A program made the position numbers and the translations under genes. This document shows positions 3,273-18,918 of a stretch of 64,000 nucleotides of DNA, piece after piece; position 1 is the stretch's first letter, and every line of letters begins with the position of its first letter. Source of the DNA: Pirellulimonas nuda (lineage in GTDB: Bacteria; Planctomycetota; Planctomycetia; Pirellulales; Lacipirellulaceae); NCBI RefSeq assembly GCF_007750855.1, contig NZ_CP036291.1, positions 3,844,001 to 3,908,000 of the forward strand, written 5' to 3'. The notes under the pieces are model-generated. The model was not told the DNA's origin. It worked only from the letters and a program-made list of their open reading frames with translations, and searched no databases.

Positions 3273-4094
3273 GGCCTCCTCAGGCTGTGGTCGGCGTCGT
3301 TCTTGCAATCGCAAGCAAAGCATAGGGATGAGAGGACCCGGCCGTCGACCCCGAGCAAAGAGGCAACGCCCAGCGGCCGGCGCCGATCAGACCTGCCGGA
3401 CCAAACCGCGTGAGCCCAGCAGCCCTACCAGCCGCCGCGCCGGCCCCACCCACAGCTCAAGGGACCCTGCAAAATAGCCAGTTCGCCCCGCAGGGGTCAA
3501 GTCGCTGCCGGGGACAGAAGTTTCTTTCGACTTCTTCGAAGAATAATGTCCGGGTCTGAATCGAAGCGGCCTAATACTCATGGCCGATGCGGTCCGCTCT
3601 GGCGGATTCGTTGCGGCTGAGGGGCCTCACACTCGAGCCCGTCGTTCGGGGGCTGGTGTCGTGGCTCAAGGTGCTTTTGGCTATTCAGAGCGCTCGTTCA
3701 GGAGTGGGATCGTTGACGCCACCGTGGCGCTTAGATGCCGCGCGCCGAACCGGCTGCTGAGAGGGCGACGGCGGAAGAACCTACGTGGTCGCTCCGGAGC
3801 GGAGGCGCCGGCTTCCCTACGGACGACACCCTACAACAGAACTTGATTGACCTTGCTTGCGAGCGGAAGCTTGGCGAATCGGCCCTCGCGGCGACGCCCG
3901 CACCGCGCAATTCATTTGACCCCAACGGAACTTTGAGTTTTTTGTGGAGCTTGAGTCTTCGACTTGTTGGAGTGCACATCGTGCTGCTCGAGGCCGCCGA
4001 GCCGTTTCGGCGCATCTCGAAGAGTAACCGTGCCTTTTGTGGTCTTTTCCTCTGCAACTTGTTGCTTTTCCTTTTGAAGATGAGGGTGAATCTA
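3273..4094. other. divergent intergenic region between sigma factor and PEP-CTERM gene
   Basis: About 820 bases with no recognisable gene. It separates two divergent transcription units, so promoters for both must lie here. Several open frames cross it, but their translations are arginine-rich and repetitive in the way of random high-GC sequence. A less GC-rich tract at about 4030-4095 (CTTTTGTGGTCTTTTCCTCT and following bases) lies directly upstream of the PEP-CTERM start and is the likeliest leader. I could not identify -35 or -10 boxes with confidence. Confidence 0.45.
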
Positions 4095-4904
4095 ATGAAG
4101 AGATTGGTGTACCGGCTCGGTCTACTGACCGCCACGCTTGGCATGCTGGCGACCGCTTCCCAGGCGTCCGCGGCGATTATCGCTAACGCCGCAGCAGACT
4201 ACGTCGCCGCCGCGGGCAGCCCTACGGCTGCTCTGTTGGCGCCGCCGACCGGCTGGAGCTACCTTGGCTCTGACGCGGTCAACGGCGGAACCGAAACGGC
4301 GCTAACGGCCGGCGCGGTGGGCAACCAGGGCGCGGCCTATCAAGGTTTCGTCGGCGTCTCGACCGCAGGAACGGCGGCCGTCTACGGCACCAACACGGCC
4401 GACCCAGCAGAGTTCGAGATCTTTAGCAATGGCGACGCCAACGGCGGCGTTGTAGGCGCCGACCTGCTGCTGCACCCGGGTCAAGGCGGGAACGCCGATG
4501 AGTACGTGATCGTCCGCTATACGATCTCGGCTGCCGACGCCCTTGGCGCCGCCCCCGGCGCCGGCGTCATCTCGGGCAGCTTCCGAGACCTGATTGTGGG
4601 TGGAGGCGCGGCCGCGCAGTCGATTTCTGCCGCCGTATACCATAACAGCGCCTCTCTCTTCAGTGTCGCTGGCGGAACCGCCGCTCAGAATACACCGGGA
4701 GTTTTGACGCAAGCTGCTGGGTCGTTCAACCTGACAGGCCTCACGTTCGCAGAAAACGATACAATCGACTTTGTGGTCGGCATCAACGGCCATTTCGGCG
4801 CCGATGAAACGGCGCTCCAAGCGACTATTTCAACAGTACCCGAGCCCGCCTCGTTGGCGCTGCTTGCGATCGGCTGCATCGGTTTGGTGGCCCGTCGACG
4901 CTAA
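4095..4904 (+). CDS. PEP-CTERM sorting-domain protein, first member of a local paralogue family
   Basis: A 269-residue exported protein. The start at 4095 gives M-K-R-L-V-Y-R followed by a hydrophobic signal peptide that ends A-S-Q-A-S-A-A. An AGGG ribosome site lies ten bases upstream, and an alternative ATG at 4080 adds five residues. The mature domain begins A-D-Y-V-A-A-A-G and contains [19 protein letters not shown] and [12 protein letters not shown]. This domain recurs in both modules at 6843-9150 and, more diverged, at 17842-18918. The C-terminus is V-P-E-P-A-S-L, a hydrophobic helix and R-R-R, the exosortase recognition signal. No function beyond surface or matrix association can be assigned; the repeated domain is probably a beta-sandwich. 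A DUF1559 gene and a lipoprotein gene follow on the same strand. Confidence 0.85.
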
Positions 4905-4926
4905 TGGCGGATGGACGCTCAATCTT

Positions 4927-4967
4927 GATGGGGCCACGTTCTGCGGCAGCGGGGCGTGGCCCCCATC
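4927..4967 (+). terminator. stem-loop downstream of PEP-CTERM gene
   Basis: GGGGCCACG pairs perfectly with CGTGGCCCC around a 16-base loop, and flanking GAT/ATC extends the stem across a one-base bulge. It starts 23 bases after the stop at 4904. No T-run follows, so it may be a processing or stability hairpin and not a classic intrinsic terminator. Confidence 0.5.
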
Positions 4968-5040
4968 ACTTGGAAGCAGATCACTTGGAAGCAGATCACT
5001 TGGAAGCAGATCACTTGGAAGCAGATCACTTGGAAGCAGA
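4966..5040 (+). repeat. five perfect tandem copies of a 15-bp unit
   Basis: The unit TCACTTGGAAGCAGA is repeated five times without a mismatch. A second, two-copy 15-bp repeat, GCAGAGCCCGTAGAC / GCAGAGCCCGTGGGC, follows immediately. The array lies between the PEP-CTERM gene and the DUF1559 gene. In one frame it would encode L-G-S-R-S repeats, but no start codon or protein family supports translation there. Perfect copies suggest recent slippage. Confidence 0.9.
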
Positions 5041-5160
5041 GCCCGTAGACGCAGAGCCCGTGGGCGGAGCGGAGCGGCGCCTGCCGCTAAGCGGGAGGTT
5101 CTCGCCGGGGGAGTAGTCCCGGAGAAATTTCATGACACTCATTCGAGACCGGAGTCCTTC

Positions 5161-6216
5161 ATGGACGGAACAAACAAAAGGCGTTGTATGAAGTCGATCG
5201 CCCCTGGTTGTGGAGCCTCTGGCCGTGTGCGCGGCCTCGGCTTCACGCTCGTTGAGCTGCTGGTCGTCATCGCGATCATCGGCATCCTGGTCGCCATGCT
5301 GCTTCCCGCGGTCCAGTCGGCGCGGGAGTCGGCGCGGCGGGCGATGTGCACGAACCATCTCAAGCAGATCGGGATCGCGCTGCACAACTGCCACGACGTT
5401 CACCAGAAGTTCCCCCAGGCCGGCGGCTACTTCCCCCGCGTAACCTCCACTCCCTCGGCGGTTGGGCCCGCGGTGTTGAGCTCCGCCCAGTACTTCCTGC
5501 TCCCGTTCATGGAGGAATCGGTCCTGTACGAAACCATCGGCAACGAGACCCCCTCCGCGAGCAAGAGCACGCAGAACACCGCCACGCTCTTCTTGGCGAA
5601 CAACCCGTACGGGGTGCCGCCGGCGGGCTACCTGTGCCCTTCGGACCAGAGCTCGGACACGCCGGGCATCAATTCATGGTCGAACGGCAATCAGTTTGGC
5701 ACCACCAGCTACGTCGCCAACGTTCAGGCGCTTGGCAACTACTACCAATCGAACAAGACGGCGCTGCAGCCGTTTAAGGACTCGTACATGAAGTTCGCGA
5801 AGGCAACCGACGGCTCCAGCAAGACCGTGGTGTTCGCCGAGCGGTACTATGTCTGCCCGACCCCTTCGGAGCAGGCCAACGGCCGCACGGCCTGGCTGGG
5901 AACGCTCCCCACCCCCAACGACCCGGTGTTCTCTTGGTGCATCAAGGAGGGCTCGGTAGTGAGGCCGCTGATCGAGCCGCCGCAGATCTCGCCAGACCCG
6001 ATCGATTGCAACAAGAACACCACTCAAACCGCCCACCCCGGCGCCATGAACATCCTCATGATGGACGGCAGCGTGCAGACCGTGGGGGGCGACGTTGAGG
6101 ATGACGAGTGGTCGTTCATGATCCTGCCCCAGGACGGCGGCGACAACAGTGTGCTGAACCTGTACAGCAACTGCCCAGAGGCAGCGGCCGCCGGCAGCGG
6201 CGGGCCGGTGCTCTAG
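5161..6216 (+). CDS. DUF1559 protein with type IV pilin-like N-terminus
   Basis: A 351-residue protein. About 25 residues after the start comes the prepilin-like motif [19 protein letters not shown], cleaved after the glycine by a prepilin peptidase in related proteins. The DUF1559 signatures follow: [14 protein letters not shown], a Y-L-C-P-S-D motif and, near the end, [17 protein letters not shown] codons at 5161 and 5188 are both possible; 5161 has GGAG eight bases upstream and 5188 has AAAGG. Planctomycetes carry dozens of these proteins, thought to form pseudopilus-like structures, but the function is not established. It lies between a PEP-CTERM gene and a lipoprotein gene, an order found again at 51203-53196. 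Confidence 0.9.
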
Positions 6217-6842: not shown

Positions 6843-9800
6843 ATGAATACTTTTGCAGTCCGAGTTGGCCTGCTGGTCGCCATGTTTTGCGTCCAAGGGG
6901 TTGTGTCCCGCACCGACGCAATGGTGATCGCCGACGCCGCGGCGGACTACGTCGCTGCCGCCGGCGGCCCCACCACCGCGTTGACCACGCCGCCTCCTGG
7001 CTGGAGCTACCTGGGCGCCGATGCGGCCAACGGCGGCGCCGAGGTGACGCTTACCGCGGGTCAAGTCGGGAACGTGGACCCTGCCTATCAAGGCTTCGTC
7101 GGCGTTTCTGGCTTCGGAACGGCGGCCGTCTATGGCACGAACACCGCGGACCCAGCGGAGTTCGAGATTTTTAGCAATGGCGACGCCAACGGCGCGGTTG
7201 TCGGTACGGACCTGCTGCTCCACCCAGGCCAAGCTGGTAATGCCGATCAGTTTGTCATCGCTCGCTACACGATTTCCGCCGCCGACGTCGCGAATTCTGC
7301 TGGTTTGACTGGCGTCATCTCTGGCAGCTTCCGGGAACTGGTCGTTGGGGGGGGCGCGGCCGCCCAGTCGGTGAGCGTCGAAATTTTTCAGAACGGGGCC
7401 TCCCTCTTCTCTGCTCTTGGCGGAACAACAGCTCAGGGAACGCCAGGAATATTGGAGCAATCTGCTGGAAGTTTCAACCTGACGGGCCTGACGTTTGCCC
7501 AGAACGATACGATCGACTTTGTGGTAGGGATCAACGGGCACTTTGGCGCCGACGAGGCGGCGCTTCGTGCGACGATCTCACTTGTGCCCGAGAACGAGGT
7601 AGACGTTTCGGCCTCCCTGGAGATCGATCGCGACACGGGCTCGATAGCGATCAAGACGTCCGTGGGCGTGACTCCGTTGAATATCCTTGGCTACAAGATC
7701 TCCTCGCCGTCGCGGTCTTTGGACCGCGGCGCGTGGCGGTCGATCGCAGGAAACTACGATGTCGGCAACCCCGGCCCCAATCAGCTCGACCCCAACGACG
7801 CGTGGACGGAGCTGACCGCGGACCCGGGCGACGGTTCGGAGCTCAGTGAGCTAGAAACCGACGGCGGCGACGGGGCGTTTCTCGCGGCGTCGCTGGACAT
7901 CGACCTCGGCAGCGGAGACGGGTCGACCACGTTCGGACCTTGGCTTCAGAACCCGGTAGAAGACGTTCGGGCGGAACTGCTCCTTAGCGGCGGCGCCGTG
8001 CTGTCGATCCCGGTCAGCTTCGTCGGGAACAACGGCGCAGCGTTCGAGCGATCGGACCTCGACTTCGACGGCGACATCGATACCGACGACTGGATGGTCT
8101 ATCGCGACGGCCTGGACACCGACCTTGCTGGCTTGCTGCCGGCGTTGGCCTATCAGGCGGGCGACCTGGACGGCGACTTCGACAACGACGTCGAGGACTT
8201 CGCGATCTTCAAGGCCGATTTCGAGAACGCGAACCCCGGGATGACGCTCGCGAGCGCGCTCGCCGTGCCGGAGCCGGCCGGGGCGTCTTGCCTGCTGGTG
8301 GGGGCGGCGGCCTTGCTGTTGCTCAGCAGGCGGAAGGGCGATTGCGACCCCTGCAATCAACACGACGAAGTTAACCTAGAGAGGAGTTCAGCCGTGCGAC
8401 AACGAAGAAGGCTTCTGGCGGCCCGGGTGCTGCCCTCCTGCCTGGCGGCAGGCATCGCGATTGGCGCCGCCTCCAGCAGTTCGGCCCAAGTGATCGCCGA
8501 CGCCGCGGCGGACTACGTTACCGCCGCCGGCGGCCCTACCGGCGTGTTAACGACGCCGCCGACAGGCTGGAGTTACCTCGGCGCCACTGCGGCCAATGGC
8601 GGGACGGAGGTGGCGCTTACCGCTGGTCAAGTCGGCAACGTGGGCGCCGCCTACCAAGGTTTCGTAGGCGTTTCTACCGCGGGAACGGCGGCCGTTTATG
8701 GCACGAACACCGCCGGCTCGGCGGAGTTCGAAATCTTCGGCAATGGAGAGGCCAACGGCGCGGTGGTGGGCGCCGACCTGCTCCTCCACCCGGGTCAAGG
8801 AGGCAACGCCGATGCGTTCGTCATCGCCCGCTACACGATTTCCGCGGCCGATGTGCTAAATGCTGCCGCGGGCTCGGGCGCCATCTCAGGCAGCTTCCGA
8901 GACCTGATTGTTGGCGGAGGCGCGGCCGCCCAGTCGATTTCTGCCGCCGTGTATCAGAACAACACCTCTCTCTTCAGTACGGCCGGCGGAACCGTCGCCC
9001 AGGGCACGCCGGGGATACTGACGCAAGCCGCCGGCACGTTCGACCTGACAGGCCTCACGTTTGCGGAGAACGATACGATCGACTTTGAGGTCGGGATCAA
9101 CGGTCACTTCGGCGCCGACGAGACGGCGCTCCGGGCGACGATCACGCTCGGACCGCCGATCAACGTGCTTAAGATCGTCGCGAACCCCCTGACCGGCGCG
9201 CTATCGTTGCAGAACCCCAACGCGAATGTTGACTACGACATCGACTTCTACACGATCAAGAGCGACGCCATGGCGCTGTCGTTCGACGGGTGGAACAGCC
9301 TGCAGGACCAGAACCGGTCCGGGTTTCCTGCCGGCGACGGGTCCGGCAACGGCTGGGAGCAGTCGGGCGGCAGCGACGACGGAACCCTGACCGAGGCCTA
9401 CCTGACCGGCAGCTCCACCGTCGAGGCCGGCGCGTCCATCCCGTTGGGGTTGGCGTTCGACCCGTCGGTGTTCGGCGCCGCGAACGACGGGGATCTTACC
9501 TTCGAGTACCGCCTGGCCGGGACCGGTCAGGTTATCACCGGGACCGTCGAGTACGACAGCTCGGTCCTTCCAGGCGACTTTAACGCAGACGGATTGGTCA
9601 ACGCAGCGGACTACACGGTCTGGCGTGACAACCTCGGCGCAGCGGACGAATCGTCCCTAAACGGCGCCGGCAGCAACTCGGGCGGCGTCGATCAAGCCGA
9701 CTACGCACTGTGGAAGAGCAGCTTTGGGCAGCCGGCGGCCTCGGCCGTCGGATCGGCCGCAACCGCGGCGGTGCCCGAACCCGGCGCGATCGCGCTCGGC

Positions 9801-11297
9801 CTGTTCTGCCTGTTGGCGGCCGCCACGCTGGCGGCGCGTGGTCGTGCGGGCGGCGCCGCGTCTGGGCGATCTCTCGCGGCCCTCGGCGTTGGCGTGCTGG
9901 TGGCCCTGTCGGCCGGCCCGCTGCAGGCGGGGGTGACGAACGACCGCCTCCTGCTGTTCGGCGAAGGCGCGGCCGGCGCCGGCGGGGCGGTTCCCGAGAA
10001 TGGGGCCCCGGGCGTCGTTGTCGGCGCCAACGTCTCCAACCCGGCCGCGGGGGACACGGTCGACAACCAGGGCCCCAGCGGTGCGTACCTGGGACTCAAC
10101 CAGGACGGGTCGCCCCAGTACGTGAACGTCAACTCCGGGCCGCTCGCCAGGGGGGGAACCAGCCCGGGCGACGTCGGCATCCGTTTTGACGGCACGGACG
10201 ACAGGCTTACGGGGCTGCCCCTGAACCGGCCGGACGAGCTCGCCGACCTCGTGTTGCTCGCCAGCGGCTCCACCTACCCGATCAACTACGACGGGATCGC
10301 CGCGCGGGGCCTCCAGCTCTGGGTCTACCCCGACGCTTCGGCACTCGGTTCGGTCGGCGCCCCGACCAGCTTTCAAAGCGTGGTGTTCGATACGCTCCAG
10401 AGCGGCGGGCCGGCGATTACCGCAGAGGGAAAGTGGACGCAGACCAATGCCGGGCGGATCAACGGCTCGAACGCCATTCCAGCCACGGTCGCTGTCCCCG
10501 CGGGTAACACGTGGTACCACGTGATGCAACAAGTCTACGCGCACGGCGCAGCGGGGAGCCCCAAGGTCGTCCCTGGCAGCGGCGCCGCCCAAGCGTTCAC
10601 CAGCGTGCTCTACGTCGATGGCGTCGCGGTATCCGCCAACAACGGCAACATCGCCCTAGGGGGGACCAACAACTACACGACCGAGCTCGTGGTGGGCGCC
10701 TCGCAGGTGGCGAACGACGGCATCAACCCGCTCTACGGAAACTACTTCTCGGGGGCCGTCGACAACCTCAGCATGTATGTCTACGGCGACAACGAGACCG
10801 GAACGCCCGGCGTTCTTTCGGACGGCGAGGACTGGGGAGACTTCGACCTGTTCTCCGACAACGCCTGGATCGCCAACGCGATCGCCCAGATTCCCGGTGG
10901 TGAGCTCAAGCAGGGCGACGTCAACCGCGACGGCGACATCGACCAGCTCGACGTCGATAGCTTCGTGCTCGGCTGGGGCAGCGAGAACCACATTGCCGGC
11001 GCCACGAACACCCTGATCGTTGGCGACTGGAACACGTGGCTCGACGGCGACATGAATCACGACGGCGTCACCGACCTGTTCGACGCCTACATCCTCCATG
11101 AATCCTTGCGCACCACGCCGCTGGGTGGTCTTGACTTCGCGCTCCTGGTGAACCCGGTGCCGGAGCCGGCGTCGCTGGTTCTCATCGGCGTGGCCGTCAG
11201 CGGGGTGCTTGCCGTCTGCCGCACGAACCGAAGTACGGGCCAGGACGCCCGCGAGCAACGCGTCGCACAGCGTGGCTGCTGTGAAACGGGCTGCTGA
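6843..11297 (+). CDS. three PEP-CTERM proteins fused in one uninterrupted frame (1,484 residues)
   Basis: One open frame carries three full protein plans. Module 1 (residues 1-about 500) has a signal peptide, the paralogue domain starting V-I-A-D-A-A-A-D-Y-V, a second beta region, a dockerin-like repeat (D-F-D-G-D-I-D-T-D-D-W) and V-P-E-P at 475, then a hydrophobic helix and S-R-R-K. Module 2 starts at a GTG at 8394 (residue 518) with R-Q-R-R-R-L-L-A-A-R and a second signal peptide, the same paralogue domain, a dockerin repeat and V-P-E-P at 977. Module 3 (from about residue 1005) has another hydrophobic signal-like stretch, a LamG-like domain, dockerin repeats (D-V-N-R-D-G-D-I-D) and V-P-E-P at 1439. 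A normal PEP-CTERM protein stops a few residues after its arginine cluster, and here two such stops are missing. Module 2 has its own strong ribosome site; module 3 has none visible. It could be a real polyprotein, or neighbouring genes fused by stop loss. Confidence 0.8.
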   Translation: MNTFAVRVGLLVAMFCVQGVVSRTDAMVIADAAADYVAAAGGPTTALTTPPPGWSYLGADAANGGAEVTLTAGQVGNVDPAYQGFVGVSGFGTAAVYGTNTADPAEFEIFSNGDANGAVVGTDLLLHPGQAGNADQFVIARYTISAADVANSAGLTGVISGSFRELVVGGGAAAQSVSVEIFQNGASLFSALGGTTAQGTPGILEQSAGSFNLTGLTFAQNDTIDFVVGINGHFGADEAALRATISLVPENEVDVSASLEIDRDTGSIAIKTSVGVTPLNILGYKISSPSRSLDRGAWRSIAGNYDVGNPGPNQLDPNDAWTELTADPGDGSELSELETDGGDGAFLAASLDIDLGSGDGSTTFGPWLQNPVEDVRAELLLSGGAVLSIPVSFVGNNGAAFERSDLDFDGDIDTDDWMVYRDGLDTDLAGLLPALAYQAGDLDGDFDNDVEDFAIFKADFENANPGMTLASALAVPEPAGASCLLVGAAALLLLSRRKGDCDPCNQHDEVNLERSSAVRQRRRLLAARVLPSCLAAGIAIGAASSSSAQVIADAAADYVTAAGGPTGVLTTPPTGWSYLGATAANGGTEVALTAGQVGNVGAAYQGFVGVSTAGTAAVYGTNTAGSAEFEIFGNGEANGAVVGADLLLHPGQGGNADAFVIARYTISAADVLNAAAGSGAISGSFRDLIVGGGAAAQSISAAVYQNNTSLFSTAGGTVAQGTPGILTQAAGTFDLTGLTFAENDTIDFEVGINGHFGADETALRATITLGPPINVLKIVANPLTGALSLQNPNANVDYDIDFYTIKSDAMALSFDGWNSLQDQNRSGFPAGDGSGNGWEQSGGSDDGTLTEAYLTGSSTVEAGASIPLGLAFDPSVFGAANDGDLTFEYRLAGTGQVITGTVEYDSSVLPGDFNADGLVNAADYTVWRDNLGAADESSLNGAGSNSGGVDQADYALWKSSFGQPAASAVGSAATAAVPEPGAIALGLFCLLAAATLAARGRAGGAASGRSLAALGVGVLVALSAGPLQAGVTNDRLLLFGEGAAGAGGAVPENGAPGVVVGANVSNPAAGDTVDNQGPSGAYLGLNQDGSPQYVNVNSGPLARGGTSPGDVGIRFDGTDDRLTGLPLNRPDELADLVLLASGSTYPINYDGIAARGLQLWVYPDASALGSVGAPTSFQSVVFDTLQSGGPAITAEGKWTQTNAGRINGSNAIPATVAVPAGNTWYHVMQQVYAHGAAGSPKVVPGSGAAQAFTSVLYVDGVAVSANNGNIALGGTNNYTTELVVGASQVANDGINPLYGNYFSGAVDNLSMYVYGDNETGTPGVLSDGEDWGDFDLFSDNAWIANAIAQIPGGELKQGDVNRDGDIDQLDVDSFVLGWGSENHIAGATNTLIVGDWNTWLDGDMNHDGVTDLFDAYILHESLRTTPLGGLDFALLVNPVPEPASLVLIGVAVSGVLAVCRTNRSTGQDAREQRVAQRGCCETGC
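8380..8396 (+). promoter_or_regulatory. internal Shine-Dalgarno and GTG start inside the fused frame
   Basis: AGAGGAG at 8380-8386 lies seven bases before GTG at 8394. The codon is in frame with the upstream module and begins a basic, signal-peptide-like sequence. Spacing and strength are those of a genuine initiation site, so the second PEP-CTERM module is probably also made as a separate protein. Confidence 0.65.
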
Positions 11298-14031: not shown

Positions 14032-15723
14032 ATGAAATGTGAAAGAACAATGATGCCCCGCGATCGACGCCGCTTCCCGATGGTCCTCACGCTTGCGCTG
14101 CTTGCCCAGGGGTTCGCCCCCGCCGCGATGGCGGCCGAACAGCCCGGCGGAGCCATTACCTTCGGGTCACTGCTGCAAGAAATGGTCAGCCGCGACGAGG
14201 TGGCGCGGTTCCCCCGGCACGATTTTCGGTTGAAGCAAGACAGCAGCTACAACCGCGTCTCGACCAAGCCGGAGCCCCCAAGAAACGAGCCGAAGGGCTG
14301 GTTCGCCAACCACGACTTCAACTCCAGCGACAGGGACAAGAACTTCATTCGGATCGAAGAGAATGGAGGCAGGAAAGAGTGGGTGTTGATGGAGGACACG
14401 GGGCCAGGGGCGATCGTACGGACCTGGATGCCCTGGAAGGGGCAAAGCAAGCCCACCAGCTCGACCATCATCCGCTTCTACCTCGACGGCCAGGACGAGC
14501 CGGCCATCGAAGGAAACGAGTTTGAGCTCTTCCAGGGCGCCGGCATCGCGCCGTTCCCGCTCGCCCACCAATCGCTCCGGTCGGCGGTGTCGTTTCTGCC
14601 CATCCCCTACGCCAAGGGCTGCAAGGTAACCGTTTCGGAGCGCCCGTTCTTCTACCAGTTCACCTACCGCAAGTATCAAGAGGGCGCGCCGGTCACGACC
14701 TTCCGCATGGAAGACCTGGCGGCCAACGCCACTCTGATCCGCGACACCTGCGCCACGCTGCTCGCCCCGACCACCAGCGCTGCGTCCCCGGCCGAGCCGA
14801 AGCTGGCCGGCAAGCTCGAGTCTGGCCAAGAGATGTCCCTCAAACTGACCGAAGGAACGGCCGCGGTGCGCGGGTTGTCGGTCTGGCTCGGCGGCTACGA
14901 CGACCCGAACGTGACGCGGTCGGTCGTCCTGAAGATGGAGTTCGACGGCAAGCAAACGGTGTGGTGCCCGCTGAGCGAGTTCTTCGGCACGGGGGTCGGC
15001 CTGAACCCGTTCCAGGGGTGGTACCGCACCGTCGCCAACGACGGCACGATGTCGAGCCGGTGGGTGATGCCGTACCGCGAATCGGGCGCTATTTCAATCG
15101 TCAACCTGGGCGCAGAACCGGTCGAGTTCGAGCTGAAGGCCTCGATCGGCGATTGGCAATGGGACGACCGGTCCCTGTACTTCCACGCCGCGTGGCGTGG
15201 GCAGTACCCGGTGCCGACCCGCCCCTTCTCGGACTGGAACTACGTGACGCTCAAGGGACGCGGCGTCTTCGTCGGCGACACGCTGACGGTGCTCAATCCG
15301 GTCGAGACTTGGTGGGGGGAGGGTGACGAAAGGATTTTCGTCGACGGCGAGGGCTTCCCGTCCATCTTTGGGACGGGCACCGAAGACTACTACGCCTATT
15401 CCTGGGGGGGGCGCAGCACCGACTTCTACGAGCACCCCTTCCACGCTCAGCCGCGGTGCAACGTGTACAACAAGCTGAACCGAAAATCGACGGACGAGCG
15501 CAATACGCAGGGGTTCAGCACCGAGACCCGCACGCGCGCCCTGGACACGATGCCGTTTGACGAATCGCTGCAACTCGACATGGAAGTCTGGTCGGGGACA
15601 GACTGCAACATGGGGTACGCCGCAGGGACGTATTGGTACGGCGACGCGCAGACCGTCTCCAACCAAGAGCCCGATCCGGACGGCGCCTTGGCGGTCCCGC
15701 CGCTGCCAGAGGAGATGCGCTGA
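14032..15723 (+). CDS. GH172 (DUF2961) glycoside hydrolase
   Basis: A 563-residue exported protein with the signal peptide V-L-T-L-A-L-L-A-Q-G-F-A-P-A-A-M-A-A. It has the whole DUF2961 plan: S-Y-N-R near the start, E-W-V-L-M-E-D-T-G-P-G-A-I-V-R-T-W, I-R-F-Y-L-D-G, I-P-Y-A-K-G-C-K-V-T, then W-W-G-E-G-D-E and F-G-T-G-T-E-D-Y-Y. In the characterised GH172 alpha-fructofuranosidase the catalytic glutamates are, from memory, E270 and E291. Here the corresponding residues are E430 and E451, with the same spacing of 21. Known members act on difructose anhydrides or arabinofuranosides, so a furanoside substrate is likely but unproven. It has no PEP-CTERM. A second GH172 gene follows on the same strand. 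Confidence 0.9.
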   Translation: MKCERTMMPRDRRRFPMVLTLALLAQGFAPAAMAAEQPGGAITFGSLLQEMVSRDEVARFPRHDFRLKQDSSYNRVSTKPEPPRNEPKGWFANHDFNSSDRDKNFIRIEENGGRKEWVLMEDTGPGAIVRTWMPWKGQSKPTSSTIIRFYLDGQDEPAIEGNEFELFQGAGIAPFPLAHQSLRSAVSFLPIPYAKGCKVTVSERPFFYQFTYRKYQEGAPVTTFRMEDLAANATLIRDTCATLLAPTTSAASPAEPKLAGKLESGQEMSLKLTEGTAAVRGLSVWLGGYDDPNVTRSVVLKMEFDGKQTVWCPLSEFFGTGVGLNPFQGWYRTVANDGTMSSRWVMPYRESGAISIVNLGAEPVEFELKASIGDWQWDDRSLYFHAAWRGQYPVPTRPFSDWNYVTLKGRGVFVGDTLTVLNPVETWWGEGDERIFVDGEGFPSIFGTGTEDYYAYSWGGRSTDFYEHPFHAQPRCNVYNKLNRKSTDERNTQGFSTETRTRALDTMPFDESLQLDMEVWSGTDCNMGYAAGTYWYGDAQTVSNQEPDPDGALAVPPLPEEMR

Positions 15724-15788: not shown

Positions 15789-17786
15789 ATGTTCAGATTC
15801 CATGAGACGGCCACGCGCATCCAGCGCGTAGGCAAATGCGTCGTGCTCGCCGCCCTCCTGGCGGCGGCGACGGACAACATGACCCTCGCCCAAACGGTCA
15901 CGTTTGATTCGCTTCTCGACGACATGCTCGACCGCGATGCGTTGGCGGTGCATCCCAATGCGAACGCCAGTTTTACTCTCAAGCAGCGCAGCAGCTACGA
16001 CCGCGGGTCCGTGGCGCCAGACCAGGCAGGGTGGTTCGCGAACAGCGACTGGTCGAACTACATCCGATCGGAGGTCAACCAGGGGAGGACCGAGTGGGTG
16101 CTACTGGATGAAACGGGCCCCGGCGCGGTCACACGGATCTGGGTCGGCGGACGACCCGAGCAAGCCGCCACGCTCCGGTTCTACCTCGACGGCAGCAGCA
16201 CCCCTTTCTGGTCGGGCACGGCAGAAGACTTGGTCGGCAAGAACTCGGCCATGGGCGCCTACCTGTCTTGGCGATCGGTAGACGCGGACCTCACCCCCGC
16301 GGGCAACTCGCCGGGGCAAAACCTTTACGCGCCGATCCCCTACTCCAGCGGCCTGAAGATCACGTTCGACCACACGCCCGGCGGCACCTCGAACGGCCTG
16401 TGGTACAACATCAACTACCGCACCTACGAGCCCGGCGCCGCCGTCACCAGTTTCGACCCCAGCGAACCCACCGAAGCCGCCACCGCGGCCAAGCTGGCGG
16501 CCGTAAACTCACAACTGATGAGCCCGGACACGGCGCCGCGCGGCGCCGGACTCCAGCAGCACAGCACAACGGGCGCCCTGGGCAATGGCCAGGCCCTGAG
16601 CCAGGCCCTGACGGGCGCCAGCGCCGTCAAGCGGCTGAAACTCAACCTGCAAGCGGCCGACATGGCGGCCGCGATCAAAGACACGGAGCTGCAAATCTCG
16701 TTCGACGGCCGGACGACCGTGCGGGTCCCGGTCGGGCAGTTCTTCGGCTCGGGAACCAATCAGATCAACGAGGTTCAGGACTGGTACCGCACCGTCAACC
16801 CAACCTCCGGCGACATGACCTCCTACTGGACGATGCCTTTCCAAAACGCGGCAGACATCCGCGTGGTGAACAATGGCAGCCAGAACGTCACGGTGGGACT
16901 GGAGGTCGAGACCGGCGATTGGAACTGGACGGACGATTCCATGTACTTCCACTCCAACTATCGGAAGACAGACAGCCCCCTCGTTGGCGGCAACCACGAG
17001 GACTGGAACTTTGTATCGATCCTTGGTGAAGGCGTCTATGTGGGAGACACCTTCCAGATCACGACCGGCGAAGACAATAGTCCTGTTTGGTGGGGCGAAG
17101 GCGACGAGAAGATCTACGTCGATGGAGAGGCCTTTCCTTCGCACTTCGGCACCGGCACCGAAGACTACTACGGTTACGCCTGGGGAGGCAGGCACCCCGA
17201 GACCTTCAACCACGCCTTTGTTACTCAACCCGAGAGCGGGGCGAACAGAGCCGTTGGCACAACCGTCAATGGCCGCGTCCGCGCACTGGACACCATCCCC
17301 TTCGACGAGAGCCTGCACTTCGACATGGAGTTTTGGAGCAACGCCGGCGGAGACTACGACCTGTCGGTCGCCACCATGTGGTACGGCAAGCCGGGCGCGT
17401 TTGCTGTCGGCTATGAGAAGTTGGGCGACCTCAACTTCAACGGGACGCTTGACGTGCAAGACTGGGTCCTGTTCCGCAACGGCTTTGACACCGACCTAGC
17501 GGGATTGACCAAGGGCGACGCCTACCTTCGGGGCGACCTCGATCTTGACGGCGACGCCGACGTCGATGACTTCTCTCTGTTCAAACAAGCCTACGAGGCG
17601 GAAAACGGCGCGGGCTCCCTCGCCGCCGTCTGGGTGCCAGAACCGGGAGCGCTCCAATTGGCGGCGTTTGCGTCGCTGTCCCTGGCGATGAAGCACCTGG
17701 GCCGTGGCTCGCACCTCCACTCCAAGGACGTAAACAGTAATGACCGTCCGGCGCGTCTGGCCGTCCCGACTCCTGATCCCTACTAG
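15789..17786 (+). CDS. GH172 (DUF2961) glycoside hydrolase with dockerin and PEP-CTERM
   Basis: A 665-residue paralogue of the preceding gene. The signal peptide is followed by [41 protein letters not shown] (E437) and F-G-T-G-T-E-D-Y-Y (E458). The 21-residue spacing of the candidate catalytic pair matches the first copy. Unlike that copy it continues into two dockerin-like repeats (D-L-N-F-N-G-T-L-D and D-L-D-G-D-A-D-V-D), then V-P-E-P-G-A-L, a weak hydrophobic helix and a long polar tail (residues about 640-665) that is atypical for an exosortase substrate. One enzyme would be free and the other surface-sorted. The start at 15789 lies 65 bases after the previous stop. Confidence 0.88.
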
Positions 17787-17841
17787 CAACGAATCCAAGC
17801 CCAACACGGTTTCTCTGTTCCTTCGTTCAATGGAGCTTACT

Positions 17842-18918
17842 ATGAAGACAAGACTGCTGTTAACGTCGTGCATTCTGGGCGCGATTGTGAGCAACACGCT
17901 GCCCATCGCTTCGGCCATCGTGATCGCTGATGCGGCAGGCGACTACGTGGCGGCTGCCGGTGGGAACACGGCCATCCCAACCGCCCTGCCAACGGGGTGG
18001 AGCTACTGGGGATCGTCGGCAACCAGCGGCGGGACGGAATTGGCGCTTGAGGTAAAGATAGTCGGCAACGCAGGCAACACAGGGTTTGGGGGCGCCGGTC
18101 AGTTCGGCACGCCGGCAGTCCTTGGTACGCATACAGAAGACCCCCTGAATGCGGATTATCAGTTTGAGATTTTTAGCGACGGATTTGATGGCAACCCGCC
18201 GAATGTTCCGGTAGGGAACCAAGGCGTGGTTGGCGTCGATCTGCTCCTTCATCCCGGCCCTACCGTTGACTTAAACGGCGTGGTTATCGCTCGATACACG
18301 ATTCAGGCAGGTGATTTAGCGGCGGGCAATTCTGCTACCATTGCCGGTAGCTTCCGCGATCTCGCTGGAAGGAACACTGTAGTGGGCGGCAATCCCTCGG
18401 AGTCGGTAATGGTCGAAGTACTGCACAACGGAAGCTCGCTTTTTAGCGCCACCGGCGGGGAAACTGCGGGAACCAATGGCTATTTATTGCAAGCTAACGG
18501 TACGTTCAATCTGACTGGAATTTCGCTTACCGTAGGCGACACCATTGATTTTGCCGTCAACAACAACGGTAACTTTACGGGTGACGAAACCGCATTGCAG
18601 GCAACCATCGACGTGGGGGGAGGCGCGGGCGCAATCCCCGGCGACTTCAACGGCGACAGCATGGTCAACGCGGCGGACTACACCGTGTGGCGAGACAACC
18701 TCGGTGCCAATGAGAACGTCCTGCCGCCCGGCACAGGCGACGGGTCTGGGACGGTCGACGTGGGCGACTACACGACTTGGACGAACAGCTTCGGGCAACC
18801 GGCGATTGGGGCCATCGGATCGGCCGCGGTCCCGGAGCCTGGCAGCCTTGCCCTCCTGCTCTTCGGTTCTGTGGCGGCGTGCGGGGCAGCACGCCGACGC
18901 AGGATCGGCGCTGCCTAG
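17842..18918 (+). CDS. PEP-CTERM protein, diverged member of the local paralogue family, with dockerin
   Basis: A 358-residue exported protein. ATG 17842 is preceded by GGAG nine bases upstream; an in-frame ATG at 17830 contains that ribosome site, so I prefer 17842. The signal peptide ends I-A-S-A. The domain begins V-I-A-D-A-A-G-D-Y-V-A-A-A-G-G and keeps G-W-S-Y-W-G, F-E-I-F-S-D-G, L-L-L-H-P-G and I-A-R-Y-T-I, so it belongs with the 4095 gene and the two modules of the fused frame, but it is clearly more diverged. A dockerin-like repeat (N-A-A-D-Y-T-V-W-R-D-N-L) and V-P-E-P-G-S-L, a helix and R-R-R-R complete it. It closes the plus-strand secreted-protein island. Confidence 0.85.
   Translation: MKTRLLLTSCILGAIVSNTLPIASAIVIADAAGDYVAAAGGNTAIPTALPTGWSYWGSSATSGGTELALEVKIVGNAGNTGFGGAGQFGTPAVLGTHTEDPLNADYQFEIFSDGFDGNPPNVPVGNQGVVGVDLLLHPGPTVDLNGVVIARYTIQAGDLAAGNSATIAGSFRDLAGRNTVVGGNPSESVMVEVLHNGSSLFSATGGETAGTNGYLLQANGTFNLTGISLTVGDTIDFAVNNNGNFTGDETALQATIDVGGGAGAIPGDFNGDSMVNAADYTVWRDNLGANENVLPPGTGDGSGTVDVGDYTTWTNSFGQPAIGAIGSAAVPEPGSLALLLFGSVAACGAARRRRIGAA

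Follow-up and report, generated by a model that had tools for sequence, protein, structure and literature searches.

The window, the whole 64,000-nucleotide stretch of Pirellulimonas nuda DNA analysed here, belongs to a genome of one contig (6.62 Mb; G+C content 66.6% in an 800-kb sample) and contains a single open frame that runs from ATG 6843, preceded by GGCAGGAG, to the stop at 11295-11297, 1,484 codons with no internal stop. The frame passes three times through the same cycle: signal peptide, domain, dockerin-like repeat, VPEP motif, hydrophobic helix and basic (Arg) cluster, the domain being a variable N-domain in modules 1 and 2 and a lectin-like domain in module 3. The VPEP motifs stand at residues 475, 977 and 1439 (window positions 8265, 9771 and 11157); signal peptides and their cut sites were judged by eye and from hydropathy. 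The features are as follows.

6843-11297, + strand: three-module frame of 1,484 aa without internal stop
6843-6920, + strand: signal peptide 1, end approximate (translation judged by eye)
6921-8264, + strand: module 1, with N-domain, beta-sandwich region and dockerin-like repeat (65% identity to module 2 over 259 aa; Pfam gives a weak PEP-CTERM match only)
8265-8336, + strand: internal PEP-CTERM signal 1, with VPEP, helix and RRK (TIGR02595, 18.1 bits, cut-off 16)
8380-8396, + strand: AGAGGAG with GTG, where module 2 may start internally (sequence)
8394-8486, + strand: putative internal signal peptide 2, ending SSA/QVIAD (hydropathy and position; cut site by eye)
8487-9770, + strand: module 2, with N-domain, beta-sandwich region and dockerin-like repeat (model confident for approximately residues 230-410 of 433 and not elsewhere; Dockerin_1 under the cut-off at 14.8 bits)
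9771-9845, + strand: internal PEP-CTERM signal 2, with VPEP, helix and Arg (TIGR02595, 10.4 bits, short of the 16-bit cut-off; position as in relatives)
9846-9929, + strand: loop and putative internal signal peptide 3, ending LQA/GVTND (loop without start codon; second helix in the model, modest confidence)
9930-11156, + strand: module 3, with lectin-like domain and dockerin (pLDDT 85.8; PDB matches to lectin-like folds; Dockerin_1 23.1 bits)
11157-11294, + strand: terminal PEP-CTERM signal and tail (TIGR02595, 21.7 bits)
4771-6216, + strand: frame containing the neighbouring DUF1559 pilin-like gene (PF07596, 1.6e-36; N_methyl)
3735-4904, + strand: single PEP-CTERM gene with the N-domain of modules 1 and 2 (82% identity to module 2, alignment)
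17740-18918, + strand: single PEP-CTERM gene with the N-domain of modules 1 and 2 (58% identity to module 2, alignment)

A reading of the sequence alone had described three exosortase-signal cycles in one unbroken frame, two of the three sorting signals being internal, with a ribosome site and GTG of its own for module 2 and none for module 3. Each of these descriptions stands: the signals at residues 475 and 977 are internal and that at 1439 terminal; the loop of junction 1 (40 residues) contains GTG 8394 (residue 518) with AGAGGAG upstream, which could serve module 2; and the loop of junction 2 (18 residues), before module 3, has no start codon. No Shine-Dalgarno-like site was seen by eye at TTG 9813, in the preceding helix, or at GTGs 9894 and 9900, inside signal peptide 3. 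With the two single genes at 3735-4904 and 17740-18918, the N-domain of modules 1 and 2 is present in four copies in the window.

The first and terminal sorting signals exceed the TIGR02595 cut-off and the second falls below it; the terminal signal has about 20 residues after its helix. Dockerin_1 (PF00404, Pfam cut-off 22.9 bits) is just exceeded by module 3 and not reached by module 2, and the Pfam scan gave no Dockerin_1 match in module 1, where the repeat was recognised by eye only. The host genome encodes two matches above the TIGR02602 exosortase cut-off. One exosortase sits within a 1,769-aa open frame (L152, C1:3441300-3442001), the portion of which after the exosortase appears TPR-like by eye.

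Architecture of the junctions

Aligned at the PEP motif, 113 junctions share one profile: the hydrophobic helix occupies roughly +6 to +17; positions +18 to +26 are populated by Lys/Arg and nearly free of Asp/Glu; a second, weaker hydrophobic stretch lies at about +27 to +50; and the next protein follows. The second stretch, scored as a charge-free 10-mer of mean hydropathy >2, is present in 106 of the 113 junctions versus 168 of 2,200 control segments, and A-x-A follows the junction in 89 of 113 cases versus 392 of 2,180 control 22-mers. In many junctions a single Arg cluster both ends the sorting signal and forms the n-region of the next signal peptide. In the structure model spanning junction 2, two helices flank a short loop; confidence there is modest (block means 57-74). 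At E<=0.02, TIGR02595 is matched by internal PEP segments about as often as by terminal ones (90/108 versus 56/77, p 0.10; the comparison used 108 of 127 internal and 77 of 95 terminal segments available). By hydropathy and A-x-A, one open frame extends over several exported proteins, each with its predicted signal peptide, and this layout is the design that a polyprotein would need.

Recurrence among genomes

Under the strictest rule and with repeats removed, the fetched loci, all chosen by similarity, contain at least 90 distinct frames with internal PEP-CTERM-to-signal-peptide junctions, at least 147 junctions in all, spread over 27 genomes and 14 genera; these counts are lower bounds, as the genome searches scored few candidates per genome and the strict rule drops real cases (for example L079, the sole polyprotein fetched from genome G022). 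Eleven of the 14 genera belong to the Lacipirellulaceae, such frames being rare elsewhere in the phylum, and the host genome contributes 8 of the 90 frames. The loci comprise 72 regions with module-3 or multi-module matches, 13 more, and 20 fetched for two-module frames. The first 72 regions together with the window hold 61 frames with two or more PEP-CTERM signals, 49 with three or more and 47 with exactly three; a whole-protein search added other single frames, about 1,300-1,500 aa long and covering two or three modules, in the host genome and in relatives. The cycles come in this order in further frames of the host genome and of its relatives as well, which excludes chance as the origin; a loss of stop codons confined to the host genome is rejected. 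Tandem repeats of one module give polyproteins with four (L113) and five (L082) PEP-CTERM signals.

Of the 20 regions selected for frames of about 900-1,400 aa, 18 contained one, the exceptions being L217 and L228. Eight of these loci (L209, L212, L218, L222 and L224-L227) form a further polyprotein group, which has two modules and lacks module 3; in several genomes the second modules of this group open with a similar ED(F)xFN sequence. Three two-module frames lie outside the Lacipirellulaceae: L173 comes from another part of the order, L289 and L290 from other parts of the phylum. The junction design is therefore not unique to this family. Among the matches listed from 396 genomes of the order, the only near-full-length module 3 outside the family is that of G038, G263 having a longer part of it; the remaining ones outside the family cover mainly the dockerin-PEP end.

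Within the host genome, an even sample of forty 20-kb stretches plus the window yielded 29 frames, 24 with terminal signals only and five with signals scored as internal; four of these five were judged false by eye, having no following signal peptide, though one of the four, L250, may be a real signal with a long tail. Since the window frame is the only polyprotein among the approximately 25 PEP-CTERM frames of this sample, the three-module arrangement is a minority habit among PEP-CTERM genes.

Start sites at the junctions

One alternative reading has the modules translated mainly separately, through internal starts or reinitiation, which would make the open frame that joins them incidental. 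Start sites, counted where a start codon is accompanied by at least 4 bases of Shine-Dalgarno match, were compared between the 76 of 125 junctions with short loops (up to 16 residues) and the 49 with longer ones. Short loops contain such a site in 10 of 76 cases, which is the level of terminal tails (14/148, p 0.49) and of random coding windows of like length (132/1,440, p 0.23). Longer loops contain one in 29 of 49 cases, versus 203 of 960 random windows (p 2e-8); the random windows are length-matched, whereas the N-terminal windows, in which 46 of 55 have a site, are longer than the junction windows. Both junctions of the window frame belong to the longer class.

The excess in longer loops, with GTG 8394 in the window, speaks for separate translation; because long-loop junctions exceed the controls, separate initiation may contribute there, and because junction 1 keeps a start site of its own, module 2 may be started internally as well. 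Against separate translation as the main mode stand the short loops at control level, the 33 of 113 loops without any usable start codon, the startless loop of junction 2 and the circumstance that a ribosome on the frame encounters no stop anyway. As a general rule internal initiation is unsupported for short loops, and mainly separate translation of the modules is improbable; translation as a single chain is well supported. The longer loops look like younger fusions that retain the old start, perhaps still in use, and the short loops may be read as trimmed junctions that would work only as a polyprotein, a direction that is inferred.

Fused and separate loci

Among 77 module-3 frames fetched, 60 count as fused on their 5' side and 17 as separate under the crude rule that a fused module 3 begins more than 150 aa into its frame; four labels are doubtful, namely L114 (marked separate, cut by a contig end), L175 and L176 (marked separate, module 3 being first in a multi-module frame) and L171 (seemingly mislabelled fused). 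In a quick tree the window frame belongs to an 18-row clade made up entirely of fused frames; a separate clade holds ten fused rows, each from a different genome. Some relatives encode the modules as separate genes. At these partly or wholly split loci the upstream gene stops shortly after its basic cluster, and in 15 of the 17 neighbouring pairs listed the next gene has a start with its own site at -5 to about 180 bases from the upstream gene's end. By the above labels the fused state is commoner among the fetched loci and is kept in frame across genera; since relatives with separate genes exist, stop codons have been lost or gained in evolution. The sequence-only reading had posed a polyprotein against two losses of stop codons, to be judged by stops at the junctions in relatives. 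Each alternative captures part of the outcome: the junctions are polyprotein-like and fusion is commoner, while separate genes do occur in some relatives; the cutting that a polyprotein implies would be that predicted from its signals.

At the junctions, dN/dS is 0.17-0.46 in 9 of 16 pair-junctions from eight pairs, three of which draw on the same three sequences; the other 7 of 16 were saturated and dropped. These values indicate selection against amino-acid change at the junctions. Values in the modules are mostly lower, a difference that signal peptides would be expected to show but that weaker constraint would produce too.

These data bear on the view that the frame is a sequencing error or a decaying gene with lost stop codons. 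In its favour are the split versions in relatives and a polyprotein in the host genome that has itself decayed (L124, C1:2329800-2337300), in which one PEP motif has become VPEGEA and the end of module 3 is lost. Frames with two or more junctions nevertheless recur, at least 54 of them in 19 genomes of 10 genera, and junction dN/dS is below 0.5 wherever computable; recurrence and dN/dS together refute error or decay at the level of the family, and for the frame itself it is a very remote prospect.

Modules 1 and 2 of one polyprotein have a homologous N-half in 24 of 46 cases and, where a close relative is present, module 1 tends to match module 1 and module 2 to match module 2, so that the usual plan would seem to be two variable proteins and one constant protein.

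Predicted maturation

The frame probably encodes a Sec-exported polyprotein that is cut by exosortase and signal peptidase to yield equal amounts of three surface proteins. In this scheme the first signal peptide would initiate Sec export; every internal PEP-CTERM helix would act as a stop-transfer segment, leaving the Arg-rich loop in the cytoplasm; and the next hydrophobic stretch would restart export like an ordinary signal peptide. Exosortase would cleave at each PEP motif, and signal peptidase I after every internal signal peptide. Equal amounts of the three surface proteins would thereby be freed, and each junction would leave a short piece of two helices behind in the membrane. Two of the products would be variable and probably ligand-specific, the third lectin-like. 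We infer the topology, both cuts, the equal amounts and the glycan-related function.

An unlikely alternative is that the chain is made whole and stays uncut, as a multi-pass membrane protein displaying three tethered ectodomains. It would accord with a single frame that lacks stops and with the weak second PEP-CTERM signal of the window (10.4 bits), and cutting by exosortase and signal peptidase is itself a prediction. Yet the internal PEP segments are as canonical as the terminal ones, A-x-A follows in most junctions, exosortases are present in the genome, and split relatives have the same modules as separate proteins. Against the cut polyprotein count the weak second PEP, the start sites in long loops, the split relatives, the higher dN/dS at junctions and the minority status of the arrangement. 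For the arrangement as a standing system, with exosortase and signal peptidase as its maturation machinery, a shared Arg cluster, and glycan-capture surface proteins delivered in fixed ratio, the balance leans in favour.

Relation to known sorting systems

The cytochrome bc1 precursor fbcH of Bradyrhizobium is a bacterial polyprotein that is split by signal peptidase at an internal signal sequence; unlike the frames described here, it is a respiratory enzyme without sorting signal or exosortase. PEP-CTERM signals are by description C-terminal: in Haft 2006 (PMC1569441), 87% of them have fewer than 10 residues after them, and for the very few with long tails a lack of function is suggested. The present frames resemble that system in their PEP motif, helix and basic cluster and in the exosortases of the genome, but differ in carrying at least one internal signal per frame, recurrent and canonical in form. 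A substrate of the archaeosortase ArtA has a tripartite signal away from the C terminus and, by its title, is processed (cited in PMC11980579); it shares the internal sorting signal, but is archaeal and a single case, with no series of modules apparent from title and citation. MXAN_5598 has an internal MYXO-CTERM motif, is a probable two-gene fusion and is proposed by the authors of PMC11980579 to be processed. The likeness lies in the probable gene fusion with an internal sorting signal; the signal and protease are different, and the protein, an adhesin plus an outer-membrane barrel, is called an atypical configuration (PMC11980579).

No report of serial PEP-CTERM polyproteins was found in the titles and abstract openings returned by searches on PEP-CTERM proteins and bacterial polyproteins. 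What appears to be new is the recurrent arrangement of known signals, with single internal archaeosortase and MYXO-CTERM signals as precedents. The recurrent internal signals make cutting by exosortase directly testable, because each substrate has several sites and a built-in read-out of stoichiometry. Such cutting would add a rare case of a bacterial polyprotein and would explain a class of surface proteins of about 900 to 1,500 aa in the Lacipirellulaceae.

Module folds, neighbouring genes and proposed glycan capture

The confident module 3 model (pLDDT 85.8) has 31 PDB matches at E<=0.001, mostly to lectin-like folds and with TM-scores of 0.18-0.27 by query length; the best, of modest similarity, are arabinanase domain 4, sialidase lectin domains, CBM40 and pentraxin. 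Module 3, a candidate concanavalin-A-like lectin, has no Pfam lectin or laminin-G match. For modules 1 and 2 the N-domain is poorly modelled, and none of their PDB matches reached E 0.001.

A DUF1559 pilin-like gene is present in 21 of 21 polyprotein neighbourhoods (the window and L269-L288) versus 5 of 40 random stretches of the host genome, the test set covering five genomes and the control the host genome, with stretches of 30 kb for the window and 20 kb for the others. Within the host genome alone the proportions are 5/5 and 5/40 (p 2e-4); one control stretch (L268) overlaps a neighbourhood (L284) by 8 kb and carries two of the six control DUF1559 matches. Ahead of the likely DUF1559 start in the window (frame 4771-6216), the translation contains repeated SLGSR units, which are probably a non-coding tandem repeat.

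Among 156 neighbouring proteins (65 + 91; 154 of 156 passing the filter plus two of L287 failing it), nine have LacI-like sensor domains, seven are BNR/sialidase-like and eight laminin-G-like, each class accounting for fewer than 2 of 100 random proteins drawn from 441 of the host genome. Sulfatases are not enriched near the polyproteins (5 or 6 of 156 versus 4 of 100 random proteins).

The products are probably glycan-binding surface proteins, and most likely form a glycan-capture apparatus with the neighbouring pilin-like DUF1559 protein. We propose glycan capture with pilin-like fibres because of the lectin-like module 3, the neighbouring genes and the binding of dextran to pili-like fibres of other planctomycetes (PMC5394234). 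The arrangement might connect exosortase with planctomycete glycan capture. The window also encodes, at 14032-15723 and 15789-17786, two adjoining and mutually similar DUF2961 proteins, a family that we take to be glycoside hydrolase family GH172.
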